NCBI GenBank assembly: GCA_018818925.1
Contig: JAHJQZ010000093.1
Span: forward strand, 1 to 56,615
Source of the DNA: Alphaproteobacteria bacterium
GTDB lineage: Bacteria; Pseudomonadota; Alphaproteobacteria; Rhizobiales; Devosiaceae
DNA: 56,615 bases
Reading direction: 5' to 3'
Shown here piece by piece: positions 9,970 through 28,612 of this stretch (its first letter is position 1; each line of letters begins with the position of its first letter). The position numbers and the translations under genes were made by a program. Under the pieces are notes generated by a model. The model was not told the DNA's origin and did not search any database. It was given only the letters and a program-made list of their open reading frames with translations.

Positions 9970-10056
9970 TGGTGCGGTCGAGAAGACTCGAACTTCCACG
10001 GGAGATACCCCACAGCGACCTCAACGCTGCGCGTCTACCAATTCCGCCACGACCGC
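9970..10056 (-). tRNA. tRNA-Leu(GAG)
   Basis: Reading the minus strand, the acceptor arms GCGGTCG (10056-10050) and CGACCGC (9980-9974) pair perfectly, followed by A and an encoded CCA at 9972-9970. The anticodon stem CAGCG/CGCTG encloses the seven-base loop TTGAGGT with anticodon GAG (complement of 10020-10022), reading CUC/CUU leucine codons. A long variable arm (TGGGGTATCTCCCGT) marks a class II tRNA, and the T arm contains GTTCGAGTC. All parts of a leucine tRNA are present, so it looks functional. Confidence 0.97.
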
Positions 10057-23437: not shown

Positions 23438-23812
23438 ATGCCCAAGACCGTGATGATCGTCGAAGACAACGAGCTCAATATGAAGCTCTTCAACGATTTG
23501 CTGGAGTCACGCGGCTACGGCACCATCCAGACGCGCAATGGTTTCGAGGCACTCGACCTCGCTCGCGTCCACCATCCCGACCTTATCCTGATGGACATCC
23601 AGCTGCCCGAAGTGTCTGGGCTCGAAGTCACCAAATGGCTCAAGGAAGACGAGACGCTCGCCGACATTCCGGTGATCGCCGTCACCGCCTTCGCCATGAA
23701 AGGCGACGAGGAACGCATCCTGCAGGGCGGCTGCGAGGGCTATATCTCCAAACCCATTTCGGTATCACACTTTTTGGAAACGATTGAAGGCTACATTGGC
23801 GCCGCGCGCTAG
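23438..23812 (+). CDS. divK: Single-domain response regulator DivK
   Basis: 124-residue receiver domain with no output domain. The acidic pair Glu9-Asp10, phospho-acceptor Asp53 ([13 protein letters not shown]), conserved Thr in VIAVTAFAM near residue 83, and Lys in YISKPIS near 105 are all present. Sequence and linkage to pleD match DivK, the cell-polarity regulator controlled by PleC and DivJ that acts on DivL-CckA and hence CtrA. ATG 23438 has weak ribosome binding sequence. It is 40 bases upstream of pleD and divergent from DUF3572. I saw no clean TTAA-N7-TTAA CtrA box in the 93-base spacer. Confidence 0.96.
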
Positions 23813-23852: not shown

Positions 23853-25223
23853 ATGACAGCCCGCGTGCTGGTGGTTGACGACATTCCGACCAATGTCAAA
23901 CTGCTCGAAGCCCGTCTCGCGGCCGAGTATTTCCAGGTCACCCCGGCCTATTCCGGCGCCGAGGCGCTGGAATTTTGCCGGGGCGGCCATATCGACATCG
24001 TCCTGCTCGACGTGATGATGCCCGAAATGGACGGGTTCGAGGTCTGCCGTCGCCTGAAAGCCGATCCGCGCACCCATCACATTCCCGTCGTCATGGTCAC
24101 CGCGCTCGACCAGGTCTCCGACCGCGTTAAGGGCCTTGAGGCCGGTGCCGACGATTTCCTCAACAAGCCGGTCGACGACACCCAGCTCATGGCAAGGGTC
24201 AAGAGCCTGGTGCGTCTCAAGGTCCTGACCGACGAATTGCGCGCCCGCGCCGTCACCGGCCAGCAGATCGCCATCGAGGACGCGGCTCGCGTCATGGATT
24301 CGGTCAATAGCGACGGCGGCTCCATCCTTTTGATCGACACCGACAGCCGCCAGGCCGAACGGCTCGCCTCCTATCTCGAGCCGCTGCACAAGGTCACAAT
24401 TCTCACCGAACCGGCCGATCTGGCCTTTGTCGCCGGCGACGGCGGTTTCGAGCTGGCGCTGGTCAGTTCCGCCCTCGGCGACCACGATCCGCTGCGCGTC
24501 TGCTCGCAGCTCAGGACGCTCGAACAGACGCGGCTCATGCCGATCATCCTCGTCGCCGAACAGGCCGAACGCGACAAGATCGTGCGCGGCCTCGATCTCG
24601 GCGTCAACGATTTCATCTTAAGGCCGGTCGAGCGCCATGAGCTCGCCGCCCGCGTCAAGACCCAGATCAAGCGCCACCGCTACGCCATCGAACTGAGGGA
24701 AAGCGTTTCGAGCACCATGCAGCTCGCCGTCGTCGACGAGCTGACGGGCCTATACAACCGCCGCTATTTCGACCGGCATCTCAGCCTCATGTTCACCAAG
24801 GCGCAGCAGCAGGGCCGCCACATGGCGGTGATGATGCTCGATCTCGATTTCTTCAAGTCGATCAACGACAATCACGGGCACGGCGCCGGCGACGAGGTCT
24901 TGCGGGAATTCGCCTTGAGGCTGCAGCGCAACATCCGCGGCGTCGATCTCGCCTGCCGCTATGGCGGCGAGGAATTCGTCGTCCTGATGCCCGACACCGA
25001 CGCGGCCCTGGCCCGCAGCGTCGCCGAACGGGTGCGCGCCGCCGTCGCCGATCGCGAATTCGAGGTCGACGACGCGCCCGGCCTCACGATCACCGTCAGC
25101 GCCGGCCTCGCGGCCATCGAGAACGACGATGCCCATCCCGATGCCCTGCTCAAGCGCGCCGACACCGCGCTCTACCGGGCCAAGCATGCTGGCCGCAACC
25201 GCGTCGTCTCCGACGCCGCCTGA
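23853..25223 (+). CDS. pleD: Response regulator diguanylate cyclase PleD
   Basis: 456 residues in the order REC-REC-GGDEF. REC1 keeps the phospho-acceptor Asp53 in VLLDVMMPEMDG. REC2 (about 155-275) lacks an aspartate at that place (LALVSSALGDHD) and is the adaptor receiver known from PleD, used for dimerisation. The cyclase domain begins at DELTGLYNRRYF near 295; its active-site motif is GGEEF at 371-375, an active variant, and the RxxD inhibitory site is Arg362-Asp365, five residues before it, so product inhibition by c-di-GMP is expected. It makes cyclic di-GMP on phosphorylation and controls polar development in Caulobacter. Confidence 0.97.
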   Translation: MTARVLVVDDIPTNVKLLEARLAAEYFQVTPAYSGAEALEFCRGGHIDIVLLDVMMPEMDGFEVCRRLKADPRTHHIPVVMVTALDQVSDRVKGLEAGADDFLNKPVDDTQLMARVKSLVRLKVLTDELRARAVTGQQIAIEDAARVMDSVNSDGGSILLIDTDSRQAERLASYLEPLHKVTILTEPADLAFVAGDGGFELALVSSALGDHDPLRVCSQLRTLEQTRLMPIILVAEQAERDKIVRGLDLGVNDFILRPVERHELAARVKTQIKRHRYAIELRESVSSTMQLAVVDELTGLYNRRYFDRHLSLMFTKAQQQGRHMAVMMLDLDFFKSINDNHGHGAGDEVLREFALRLQRNIRGVDLACRYGGEEFVVLMPDTDAALARSVAERVRAAVADREFEVDDAPGLTITVSAGLAAIENDDAHPDALLKRADTALYRAKHAGRNRVVSDAA

Positions 25224-25345: not shown

Positions 25346-25373
25346 CTTGTTTTTGCCCCGGTTCAGCCTATCT
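25346..25373 (+). promoter_or_regulatory. Sigma-70-type promoter of the ncRNA
   Basis: CTTGTT at 25346-25351 and CTATCT at 25368-25373, separated by 16 bases, match the alphaproteobacterial housekeeping consensus (CTTGAC, spacer 16-18, CTATAT) at five of six positions for the -10 and four for the -35. Transcription would begin near 25380. Confidence 0.6.
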
Positions 25374-25379
25374 TCCCGC

Positions 25380-25566
25380 CAGGTGATTTAGCCACCTGCC
25401 TCAGTGAATTCCCTACGGCTCTTCTCAGGTCCGCCGCAACTCCTGGGTCCGTAGGGAGGCTGGTCCGGCCGCGTAAGAGTGGCCTCTTCGAGGCGTGCCG
25501 GACCAGCCACCTCTCAGGTTCCGTCCGAACCGGAAAAGCCGTCGCCCCGAAAGGCGACGGTTTTTT
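25380..25566 (+). ncRNA. Structured small RNA with own promoter and intrinsic terminator, family not identified
   Basis: About 187 bases between pleD and rpmG with no open frame but dense secondary structure. Visible stems: AGGTG/CACCT (25381-25397); CCCTACGG/CCGTAGGG (25411-25418 with 25449-25456) enclosing CTCAGG/CCTGGG; an eleven-base perfect stem GGCTGGTCCGG/CCGGACCAGCC (25458-25468 with 25498-25508) capped by GCCTC-TTC-GAGGC; GGTTC/GAACC (25517-25531); and the terminator stem ending in six Ts. A promoter lies just upstream. Size resembles 6S RNA but two side-by-side hairpins do not fit 6S's single long hairpin with central bubble; it lacks SRP and tmRNA signatures. It may belong to one of the alpha-r small RNA families described in Sinorhizobium, but I cannot confirm that. 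Confidence 0.75.
25539..25566 (+). terminator. Intrinsic terminator of the ncRNA
   Basis: CCGTCGCC (25539-25546), loop CCGAAA, GGCGACGG (25553-25560), then six Ts (25561-25566). This is a textbook rho-independent terminator on the plus strand. Confidence 0.95.
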
Positions 25567-25583
25567 GTTGTGAAGGAGCCATG

Positions 25584-25604
25584 AAAAAACCCGCCATCGG
25601 CGGG
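25584..25604 (-). terminator. Intrinsic terminator of rpmG
   Basis: On the minus strand CCCGCC (25604-25599), loop GAT, GGCGGG (25595-25590) and six Ts (25589-25584). It lies 30 bases after the rpmG stop and 18 bases from the convergent ncRNA terminator. Confidence 0.9.
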
Positions 25605-25634
25605 TTCTTCAAAATGTGGCGCTGCGGCCCAGGA

Positions 25635-25802
25635 TCACTTGATCTTGGTTTCCTTGAAATCGACATGCTTGCGCACGACCGGGTCGTACTTCTTCATCGT
25701 CATCTTCTCGGTCATCGTCCGCGCGTTCTTCTTGGTCACGTAGAAAAAGCCGGTGTCGGCGGTCGACAGGAGCTTGATCTTGACGGTGTTTGCCTTGGCC
25801 AT
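25635..25802 (-). CDS. rpmG: 50S ribosomal protein bL33
   Basis: 55-residue ribosomal protein, translated [20 protein letters not shown] then [20 protein letters not shown] and [15 protein letters not shown]. This is the cysteine-free form of L33 typical of alphaproteobacteria, so it does not need zinc. L33 binds 23S rRNA near the E site. ATG 25802 is the only reasonable start. It is followed by its own terminator and is convergent with the small RNA gene. A frame in another register over the same bases is a shadow. Confidence 0.97.
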
Positions 25803-25907
25803 TGTCTTTGTCCCGAACTAAAAACCGCACGCGCGTCGACGTGCGGCTGGAATTTGCGCGCAACCTACGGAATTGCCGCTAAATGTCAAGCGATGGCGGC
25901 GCGCCTG

Positions 25908-26321
25908 CTATTGTTCCTCCGGCGACGCCGCATCGCGGCCGGAACCGAAGCCGTGCATGCGCTTGGCCCATTGCATGCCGACGACCATGCCCTTCAACGG
26001 TTGCAGCAGGGCGAGCGGCAGGACAATGCCGAGCGGCACCATGATCATCAGATAGGTCATCGGCGCGATGTGCCATACCATGTCGAGATGGATCATGACG
26101 CCGATGAGCAGATGCCCGACGACGAGAATGGCCAGATAGGGCGGCAGGTCGTCGGCGCGATGGTGATGCATTGGCGCGCCGCAGGCGTCGCACCTGTCGA
26201 CGGTCTTCAGGAAGCCCTTGAACAGACGCGCCTTGCCGCAGGCCGGGCACTTGCCGGCAAGCCCGTGCATTGCCGCGGGCAGCATCGGCCGCTCGTTCGC
26301 GTCGGTCAGGGTCACGGACAT
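25908..26321 (-). CDS. DUF983 family membrane protein
   Basis: 137 residues. The N-terminal third carries two CxxC pairs in a zinc-ribbon pattern, KCPACGKARLFKGFLK and RCDACGAPM, followed by two hydrophobic helices (YLAILVVGHLLIGVMIHL and LMIMVPLGIVLPLALL) and a short polar tail. This is the DUF983 layout; function is unknown, though some relatives sit near cytochrome oxidase genes. ATG 26321 is three bases after the rnr stop, and GAGGAGA within the rnr end supplies the ribosome site, so translation is probably coupled to rnr. Confidence 0.92.
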   Translation of the reverse strand: MSVTLTDANERPMLPAAMHGLAGKCPACGKARLFKGFLKTVDRCDACGAPMHHHRADDLPPYLAILVVGHLLIGVMIHLDMVWHIAPMTYLMIMVPLGIVLPLALLQPLKGMVVGMQWAKRMHGFGSGRDAASPEEQ

Positions 26322-26323
26322 GC

Positions 26324-28612
26324 CTATCTCCTCTTGTGGCGGTGATGCTGCGGGTGGCCGCGACCGCCCCGTTTTCCCGTCAGCTGCGTCTTCGGCCCCT
26401 CGCTGAGGATTTCGAACCGCAAGGCACCGGCCATCGGCGCCGCTTCCAGCAGCCTGACCTCGACCGGCAGACCAAGACCGAAGGTTTCTCCGGTGCGCTC
26501 GCCGACAAGGGCCTGCTTGTCTTCGATGTAGCGAAAGAATTCAAGCCCGAGGCTCGATGCCGGCACGAAGCCGTCGGCGCCGGTCTCGTCGAGCCTGACG
26601 AACAGGCCCGACTTGGTGACCCCGGAGATGCGCCCCATGAAGCGGGCGCCGATCCGGTCGGCCATGAAGCGGGCCAGAAGCCGGTCGTTAGTCTCGCGTT
26701 CCGCCATCAGGGCGCGCCGTTCGGTCGACGAGATGTGCTGGGAAATGCCGGCGAGCTTGGCCGCCTCGCTTTCGGTCAGCCCGTCGGCGCCAAGCCCGAG
26801 CTGGCGGATAAGCGCCCGGTGGACGATCAGGTCGGCATAGCGGCGGATCGGCGAGGTGAAATGGGCGTAGCGGTCGAGATTGAGGCCGAAATGGCCGTAA
26901 TTCTCGGGGGCATACTCGGCCTGCGCCTGGCTGCGCAGGACCATTTCCGCGACCTGGGCCTCGACGCCAGCCTCCACCGCCTTCTTGAGAACGCGGTTGA
27001 AATGGGCCGGCCGCACGCTTTCCGCTCCCGAAAACGGCAGTTTGAGGGCGTTGAGGAAGTCCTTGAGCGCCGCGAGCTTTTCACGCCCGGGCGAATCGTG
27101 GACGCGGTAGACGAGGGGGGTGCCGCCGCGTTCGAGCGTTTCGGCCGCCGCGACATTGGCCATGATCATCATTTCCTCGATCAGCCGGTGCGCCGCGAGC
27201 CGTTCGGGAATGTGAATGCCGGTGACGTTGCCGTTTTCATCAAGTTCGATCTTGCGCTCGGGCAGGTCGAGGGCCAGCGGTCCGCGCCGGTCCCGCGCTT
27301 CGGCCAATACGGCATAGGCGGCCCAGAGCGGCCTGAGGACGGGATCGAGCAGCGGCCCGGTGACATCGTCCGGCCGGCCGTCTATCGCCGCCTGCGCCTG
27401 GCCGTAGGCGAGCTTGCCGGCCGAGCGGATCGTCACCCGGTGGAAGGAGTGGGCGCGCTTGTGGCCGGTCCTGTCGAACACCATGCGCAAGCCGAGGGCG
27501 GGGCGGTTCTCGCCGCCCTTGAGCGAGCACAGGTCGTTGGAGATGCGCTCGGGCAGCATCGGCACCACCCGGTCGGGGAAATAGACCGAATTACCCCTAA
27601 TATAGGCCTCGCGGTCGAGCCCGGTGCCGGGCCGCACATAGGCGGCGACATCGGCAATGGCGACATAGACCACATGTCCGCCTTCATTGCCCTTGTCCGC
27701 GTCCGGTTCGGCAAAGACGGCGTCGTCGTGGTCCTTGGCGGTTTCGGGATCGATGGTGACAAAGGCAATGGCGCGCCAATCCTCGCGGCCTTCGATCCCG
27801 ATCTCTTCGGCCTCCGCCGCCTCGGCCAGAACGCTCGGGGAAAACCTGTAGGGGATTTCGAGGTTGTGCAGGGCGACCAGCGACACGGCGCCCTCGCTGT
27901 CGGGATTGCCGACAACCGCCGTCACCCTGGCCTTGGGCAGCATCAGCCGGCCGGCCGCGCGCACCTCGACCTCGACGAGATCGCCGTCCCTGGCATTGCC
28001 GAGATCGCCCGCTTCGATGCGCATCTCGCGCTGCTTGCGGTCGACCGGCACCAGACGGGCGCCCGTGTCGTCGCAGCGGACGATGCCGATCTGGGCCCGA
28101 CGCGGCTTGTCGAGGATCTTCATCGCCCGCGCCGAATAGACCGGCACCGGCCCGTCGCCGCGCTCAATGCGGGCAAGGATGCGATCGCCCGGACCGGGCA
28201 CGACACGGGCGCCGCGCGGCGTCTCGATGCGGATGTCCGGCCGCTCGCCGTCCGCCTCGTCCCAATTGGCCGGATGGGCGATCATGTCCTCCGGATCGGC
28301 GTCCGAGGCGATGTCGAGGACGGTGACCGACGGCAGTTCGGCGGCGCGTCGCAGCGTCTTGCGCGATCGGGCGATCAGGCCTTCTTCTTCCATTTCCCTG
28401 AGCAGCCCCTTGAACGGCACCCGCATGTCGCCGGCAATACCGAAAACGCGCACCAGATCGCGCTTAGAACTGCTGGTCGGCAGTTCGGCGAGTGCCTCGA
28501 GAATGTCCTCGCGGCTCGGCAACGCTCCCGCCGCCGGCCGCTTGACGGGCCGGCGAATCGACGGCGGCGCGCTGTCACGGAACCGTTTGGCCCCCGGAAT
28601 CTTGCGCGCCAT
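26324..28612 (-). CDS. rnr: Ribonuclease R
   Basis: 762-residue 3'-5' exoribonuclease that degrades structured RNA and acts in rRNA quality control. In order: a helix-turn-helix-like N-terminal region (about 25-85), cold-shock OB domains (about 100-230), the RNB catalytic domain with VTIDPETAKDHDDAVFA near residue 280 (metal-binding aspartates) and SIYFPDRVVPMLPE-type family core near residue 335, and an S1 domain near 635-725. The C-terminus is Arg/Gly/His-rich. ATG 28612 overlaps the topA stop by one base, so the two are co-transcribed leftward. Confidence 0.96.
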   Translation of the reverse strand: MARKIPGAKRFRDSAPPSIRRPVKRPAAGALPSREDILEALAELPTSSSKRDLVRVFGIAGDMRVPFKGLLREMEEEGLIARSRKTLRRAAELPSVTVLDIASDADPEDMIAHPANWDEADGERPDIRIETPRGARVVPGPGDRILARIERGDGPVPVYSARAMKILDKPRRAQIGIVRCDDTGARLVPVDRKQREMRIEAGDLGNARDGDLVEVEVRAAGRLMLPKARVTAVVGNPDSEGAVSLVALHNLEIPYRFSPSVLAEAAEAEEIGIEGREDWRAIAFVTIDPETAKDHDDAVFAEPDADKGNEGGHVVYVAIADVAAYVRPGTGLDREAYIRGNSVYFPDRVVPMLPERISNDLCSLKGGENRPALGLRMVFDRTGHKRAHSFHRVTIRSAGKLAYGQAQAAIDGRPDDVTGPLLDPVLRPLWAAYAVLAEARDRRGPLALDLPERKIELDENGNVTGIHIPERLAAHRLIEEMMIMANVAAAETLERGGTPLVYRVHDSPGREKLAALKDFLNALKLPFSGAESVRPAHFNRVLKKAVEAGVEAQVAEMVLRSQAQAEYAPENYGHFGLNLDRYAHFTSPIRRYADLIVHRALIRQLGLGADGLTESEAAKLAGISQHISSTERRALMAERETNDRLLARFMADRIGARFMGRISGVTKSGLFVRLDETGADGFVPASSLGLEFFRYIEDKQALVGERTGETFGLGLPVEVRLLEAAPMAGALRFEILSEGPKTQLTGKRGGRGHPQHHRHKRR

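Follow-up and report, generated by a model that had tools for sequence, protein, structure and literature searches.

An ecpR1 small RNA gene between pleD and rpmG in a Devosiaceae genome, with a lineage-specific loop letter and a predicted gcrA target site

The sequence at 25380-25566 of the window, by which we mean the whole stretch of 56,615 nucleotides that was analysed, is ecpR1, the gene of the trans-encoded small RNA (sRNA) EcpR1, with a probability of roughly 98%. An Rfam scan of the whole window, as proposed in the initial annotation, matched positions 25409-25513 to RF02500 (Atu_C6, i.e., EcpR1) at 84.3 bits, 24 bits above the gathering score of 60, with an alignment spanning model positions 1-113 of 113. 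Only one other match in the window exceeded its gathering score, a tRNA-Leu (anticodon GAG; 9970-10056, minus strand), which is also the sole tRNA of the window according to ARAGORN; RF02500 itself is present in a single copy in this genome. The same scan returned no match to 6S, SRP or tmRNA at gathering scores, in agreement with the initial annotation, and its proposal of an independent sRNA gene is substantiated by the RF02500 match together with a promoter-like site and a terminator. The novelty that it implied is absent, because the feature belongs to a named and experimentally studied family (RF02500, Atu_C6/EcpR1, formerly SmelC291). What is known is the EcpR1 family, and what is new is a Devosiaceae member with a lineage-specific loop letter. 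Very probably, this gene encodes an RNA with trans-acting antisense action, the loop of its first stem-loop (SL1) acting on the gcrA leader, and perhaps on dnaA, under stress.

EcpR1 of Sinorhizobium meliloti, also known as SmelC291, SmrC10 and Sra33 and filed in Rfam as RF02500 Atu_C6, is described as an Hfq-independent RNA that is induced through ppGpp by stress and in stationary phase and shortened by processing to about 101 nt; in stressed cells, it pairs with mRNAs of cell-cycle regulators and thereby slows the cycle (PMC4414408). By analogy, the suggestion that the feature could be a cell-cycle or growth-phase regulator would agree with this role. The features of the locus are as follows:

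23438-23812, plus strand: divK-like single-domain response regulator (PF00072, 94.9 bits; the name divK comes from position and literature)
23853-25223, plus strand: pleD, with two receiver domains and GGDEF (PF00072 in two stretches; PF00990, 175 bits)
25346-25374, plus strand: RpoD-like promoter, read directly (CTTGTT at 25346-25351, 17-nt spacer, TATCTT at 25369-25374)
25380-25566, plus strand: ecpR1, predicted full-length primary transcript of about 187 nt, its start inferred from the promoter
25380-25398, plus strand: 5' leader hairpin CAGGTG-ATTTAGC-CACCTG of the MFE structure, within the 29 nt that precede the Rfam core
25411-25456, plus strand: SL1, with outer stem 25411-25418/25449-25456 and inner stem 25424-25429/25442-25447 (RF02500 structure and MFE)
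25430-25441, plus strand: SL1 loop UCCGCCGCAACU, 12 nt, putative gcrA seed, unpaired in the MFE structure and the counterpart of S. meliloti UCCGCCGCAUCU
25458-25508, plus strand: SL2, with a 12-bp perfect stem (25458-25469/25497-25508) and an apical part containing AGAGTGGCCTCTTC
about 25517-25531, plus strand: small hairpin (MFE)
25534-25566, plus strand: intrinsic terminator of ecpR1 with six Ts, a 14-bp hairpin in the MFE structure
25584-25606, minus strand: probable intrinsic terminator of rpmG, AAAAAACCCGCC-ATC-GGCGGGTT read directly, its assignment to rpmG inferred
25635-25802, minus strand: rpmG, ribosomal protein L33, the convergent neighbour (PF00471, 59.2 bits)

The order divK-pleD-ecpR1-rpmG is that described for S. 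meliloti (PMC4414408), and the Pfam assignments of the neighbours agree with the adjacency to the cell-cycle genes divK-pleD that had been noted before. Further neighbours named by Pfam are DUF983, an RNB/S1 exoribonuclease, topoisomerase I, a Y-family polymerase and DUF3572. The neighbourhood was compared over 148 loci, made up of 30 family loci and 118 of the SL1-motif stretches found in species genomes, with L018 and L056 probably representing one genome. Among the matches listed, pleD lies upstream and rpmG downstream in 104 of the 148 loci, while 20 have only pleD despite room for rpmG, 5 have only rpmG despite room for pleD, and 19 end too near to judge the neighbours. The A/T-flanked GC hairpin at 25584-25606 stands back to back with the ecpR1 terminator.

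An RpoD-type promoter and an intrinsic terminator are present as predicted elements. The alphaproteobacterial promoter that had been placed at 25346-25373 reads CTTGTT-N17-TATCTT at 25346-25374, and the motif TTG-N17..20-TA[AGT]NNT is found 110 to 40 nt ahead of the SL1 motif in 41 of 51 family loci, which were not deduplicated, compared to 2.2 expected from mononucleotide shuffles. The terminator with six Ts was likewise recovered, as AAAAGCCGTCGCC-CCGAAA-GGCGACGGTTTTTT. A consensus scanner of the E. coli type listed no promoter between 24800 and 26200, and the ecpR1 terminator is also absent from its output for this region, presumably since the A tract, by pairing with the T tract, consumes the Ts. 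The region 25380-25570 folds with an MFE of -96.6 kcal/mol (z -5.91), and none of 200 dinucleotide shuffles was equally stable. Of the hairpins predicted by the initial annotation, "at least four" became five (25380-25398, SL1, SL2, about 25517-25531, and the terminator), and the perfect stem measures 12 bp instead of 11 bp. Its description of a region without an open frame needs qualification, as a 288-aa GTG frame (25479-26345, plus strand) overlaps the end of ecpR1; this frame, antisense to rpmG and the DUF983 gene, is taken to be mechanical.

A single band of 180-190 nt is too simple an expectation, as the dominant form described in S. meliloti is about 101 nt long, next to forms of 142 and 171 nt (PMC4414408). 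Two 5' ends lying 29 nt apart are described there as well, the shorter RNA being thought a cleavage product (PMC4414408), and the start inferred here precedes the Rfam core by 29 nt.

Both stem-loops of RF02500, SL1 and SL2, are borne out with covariation support. The underlying alignment (A1) comprises 43 distinct family cores after removal of identical ones; three loci lacking the search motif (L277, L282 and L287), whose loop letters are unchanged up to GCAAC and whose flanking stem letters are changed, were excluded before counting. Changes on both sides occur in 13 of 23 pairs, 97.6% of the 984 cells are paired, and 0 of 500 shuffles, which leave relatedness in place, reached any of five measures; sliding the partners abolishes the signal. 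The covariation sits in SL2 (11 of its 12 counted pairs) and in the outer SL1 stem (2 pairs), whereas the inner SL1 stem hardly changes, in part as a result of selecting rows with a motif that includes it, and is uninformative either way. A DNA-level or coding cause of the spacer conservation was rejected, since the aligned cores contain indels and SL2 changes in compensating pairs, which fits an RNA. At the tip of SL2, every position of the apical AGAGTGGCCTCTTC (25476-25489) is at least 90% conserved across the 43 family rows while the SL2 stem varies; this part may serve as a second site for pairing or as a binding site for a protein.

The 5' leader hairpin of ecpR1, which lies outside the Rfam model, is kept in structure across the family while its sequence changes. 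Among 46 distinct family loci, 32 leaders fold with z < -2 (mean -2.66), compared to 7 of 46 upstream controls (mean -0.83); at other EcpR1 loci, the numbers are 21 of 109 versus 7 of 109 in the control. The leader of this locus itself has a z of -1.9.

RF02500 was found in 120 of 121 Devosiaceae genomes and in 16 of 16 genera, own genome included, and 108 of the 121, again including this one, exceed the RF02500 cut-off. Its presence in relatives and the base-pair covariation exceed chance expectation; the initial annotation had suggested looking for both. Across the class, at least 10 of 385 genomes (own included) carry RF02500, a lower bound, since the filters were stricter and no more than 9 candidates per genome were scored. 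When species genomes were scanned with the SL1 motif, at least 118 stretches were obtained; going by their titles, those among the matches listed presumably belong to Hyphomicrobiales and to groups such as Rhodobiaceae, Parvibaculaceae and OCS116, and two are named merely Proteobacteria or Bacterium. EcpR1 has been described in Rhizobiales families including Hyphomicrobiaceae (PMC3927594) and is further covered in reviews and follow-ups (PMC7143759, PMC5928217). Our literature search found no paper naming both EcpR1 and Devosia, one review that, in its accessible text, mentions Devosia with small RNA and sRNA, and, under the name Atu_C6, unrelated plant papers only.

These results bear on two other explanations of the hairpins. 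They lie downstream of pleD on the same strand and could form the 3' end or a stabilising tail of the pleD mRNA, with no gene of their own; however, a promoter-like site lies in between and is kept in the 41 family loci counted above, and ecpR1 of S. meliloti is described as an independent unit on the basis of Northern blots and reporter fusions (PMC4414408), which makes a pleD tail very improbable. A new sRNA family that came to lie downstream of pleD by coincidence has in its favour the statement of the initial annotation that common signatures are absent, and nothing else. Against it stand the match over the whole 113-position model, well above the gathering score, and the same gene neighbours as for known EcpR1; with the occurrence of RF02500 across the family genomes, this possibility is refuted and its remaining probability is negligible.

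The SL1 loop UCCGCCGCAACU differs from the published UCCGCCGCAUCU by one letter (U to A). This A is common to all 30 family loci tallied and to 19 further family loci inspected, and among the matches listed, 35 of the 148 loci carry A and 113 carry T at the variable position. Five loci from named records have the A-type loop, and the titles listed include three Devosia and one Pelagibacterium. As the family loci are the 30 with the highest scores and those from named records were picked by the SL1 motif, the identity of SL1 within these sets is partly a matter of selection. A 2011 study of 23 members reportedly found SL1 positions C16-G36 identical throughout, with the loop UCCGCCGCAUCU; here, one letter of that stretch differs. 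This identity is an observation on 23 members and no rule of the RF02500 model, whose score the present locus reaches.

In S. meliloti, the SL1 loop is described as repressing gcrA via positions -109 to -95, as shown with compensatory mutations (PMC4414408). The counterpart of that site in this genome is UGUGGCGGACC at -108 to -98 of gcrA, which pairs over 11 bp (one G-U) with EcpR1 GGUCCGCCGCA (25428-25438). The predicted duplex has -21.7 kcal/mol and opening costs of 3.8 + 6.7, leaving a net -11.2 kcal/mol if the gcrA transcript is assumed to start near -140. It lies modestly above chance (p 0.047 versus 300 shuffles), and 1 of the 41 window ORFs that served as gene proxies gives a better score; among the control duplexes in the window, the strongest is located near 2079 on the minus strand, in an ORF without Pfam match.

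Across relatives, 26 of 29 family loci have GGCGGA between -135 and -60 of gcrA (no gcrA match was obtained in one of the 30 family genomes, and gene starts are approximate where the start codon was unrecognised), compared to 6 of 522 control windows further upstream. In other EcpR1-bearing genomes, it is present at these positions in 15 of 29, versus 15 of 522 control windows, and missing in 14. The best gcrA duplex over -200 to +100 reached p ≤ 0.05 versus shuffles in 19 of 29 family loci and in 11 of 26 others, where three loci were skipped as no start was found and some of the 11 lie away from -100. Distant RF02500-bearing genomes have GGCGGA between -160 and the gcrA start in 5 of 9 cases, at scattered places. 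Among 14 genomes with a gcrA match and without RF02500, 12 were inspected (one of them, G020, with an ambiguous gcrA start), and GGCGGA was found in 2, neither time within TG[CT]GGCGGAC. The exact GGCGGA is missing from three family gcrA leaders (G013, G009 and G012), in all of which RF02500 was found; G012 keeps a wobble version of the site. Judged by sequence complementarity, the EcpR1 loop matches the gcrA 5' leader here and the site is kept in relatives, and a direct action of EcpR1 on gcrA in Devosiaceae is probable.

The altered loop letter faces G in the family gcrA leaders, so that the pairing with gcrA loses one base relative to Ensifer, and it includes a G-U pair; with a T-type loop, the duplex with this gcrA would be stronger (-28.4 vs -24.7). 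Since A stands opposite G, nothing at gcrA compensates the loop change. Coevolution of the U-to-A change with a target was considered and rejected on this ground and because the dnaA match described next is unshared by 28 relatives.

EcpR1 of S. meliloti is also described as repressing dnaA via sites at the ribosome-binding site and start codon, again with compensatory mutations (PMC4414408). The dnaA gene of this genome carries, beginning at +9 of the putative start, AGTTGCGGC, a 9-bp perfect complement that uses the loop A (net -8.8 kcal/mol), and the best dnaA duplex, at -20.2, is beaten by at least 8 of the 41 gene proxies. In a motif listing, none of 28 other family dnaA loci has AGTTGCGGC at that place; G006 has AGTTGCGG elsewhere. 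An action of EcpR1 on dnaA in Devosiaceae is uncertain and less likely than not.

The RNA could also be an EcpR1 homologue that has other main targets in Devosiaceae, for instance via the SL2 apical AGAGUGGCCUCUUC, with gcrA control playing a minor part. The conservation of that apical motif throughout A1 and the changed SL1 letter speak for it, as does the retention of the SL1 loop in G013 and G009 although their gcrA leaders lost the site; moreover, the predicted targets of EcpR1 from Methylosinus sporium are described as having no consistent cell-cycle enrichment (PMC12403871). Against it stand the GGCGGA that 26 of 29 family gcrA loci retain between -135 and -60 and the 11-bp pairing between this sRNA and the gcrA of its own genome, in view of which we consider other main targets unlikely and retain gcrA as the probable target. 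As an observation in its own right, G013 (L160, L280) and G009 (L178, L277) combine a kept EcpR1 loop with a lost gcrA site.

The gcrA leader (in this genome, L149 2100-2166, minus strand) has a pattern of its own. Family gcrA leaders contain a very conserved block with arms CACGA/TCGTG, the site GGCGGACC and then TACGA-N4-TAG, which lies downstream of a promoter-like region, mostly with GATTC, a GANTC site. GANTC sites are linked to CcrM. In 26 family leaders, the CACGA and TCGTG arms scarcely vary, and further downstream there is a second block, TACGA-N4-T(A)G; as these leaders were anchored on GGCGGAC, the constancy of those letters results from the selection. Pairing of the letters that follow GGCGGA with G-rich letters upstream is possible as CGGG/CCCG, TGGG/CCCA, GTAGG/CCTAC or GTTGG/CCAAC, and here as GGGG/CCCC. 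In a helix test of this outer stem, which ignores relatedness, 1 of 2000 permutations was at least as good. RNAalifold on the 26 leaders returned the inner hairpin only, with one covarying pair, and in this genome, the inner hairpin has one G-G mismatch. The outer structure is absent from several single-sequence folds, including that of this genome, whose leader has no Rfam match up to E = 1; titles and opening parts of abstracts among the literature matches listed do not describe a structured gcrA leader element. In G013, the hairpin and outer stem stay and the rest of the block is largely intact, with the EcpR1 site gone.

The structure of the gcrA leader is a conjecture. It would make the Devosiaceae gcrA leader a conserved structured RNA (CACGA-nATn-TCGTG followed by GGCGGACC, whose last bases pair with an upstream GGG), which would form a two-RNA switch with EcpR1, the sRNA opening the outer stem by pairing. 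The element might also have a job of its own, since G013 keeps hairpin and outer stem without the EcpR1 site. We regard this picture as speculative and more likely wrong than right by a good distance.

Extrapolating from S. meliloti, ppGpp would raise ecpR1 transcription under stress and in stationary phase, cleavage would trim the primary transcript to a shorter core, and SL1 loop GGUCCGCCGCA would pair with the gcrA mRNA at -108 to -98. We propose that less GcrA would therefore be made and the cell cycle would slow; repression of dnaA by the same loop may be added, with weak support in this genome. EcpR1 would in this way tie stress to the cell cycle through gcrA and dnaA. EcpR1 is present in nearly every family genome searched, with the gcrA site kept and no common dnaA site found by motif, a distribution that would be consistent with gcrA being the older target and with control of dnaA having been added in rhizobia.

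CcnA of Caulobacter crescentus resembles EcpR1 as an sRNA acting on the gcrA 5' UTR, and also on ctrA, and is set apart by its description, with a CCCC loop acting on GGGG and a gene at the replication origin (PMC8959179). A putative EcpR1 of Methylosinus sporium 5 is known from transcriptome data, and the accessible text on it reports no gcrA site (PMC12403871), unlike the site predicted here. At -135 to -60 of gcrA, GGCGGA is absent from the genomes titled Methylocystis (G519) and Methylocapsa (G517), both of which we take to be relatives. From EcpR1 of S. meliloti, the present RNA differs in its loop (UCCGCCGCAACU here, UCCGCCGCAUCU there), a stable 5' leader hairpin, a predicted length of about 187 nt versus 171 nt, and the lack of a motif-detected dnaA site common to relatives; compared to the Ensifer copy (L066), the SL2 stem and apical part differ. 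It shares with EcpR1 of S. meliloti the place between divK-pleD and rpmG, SL1, SL2, a GC-rich loop and a terminator, as well as a site in the gcrA leader that precedes the start codon by about 100 nt, and the 29 nt from inferred start to Rfam core equal the gap between the two 5' ends described there.
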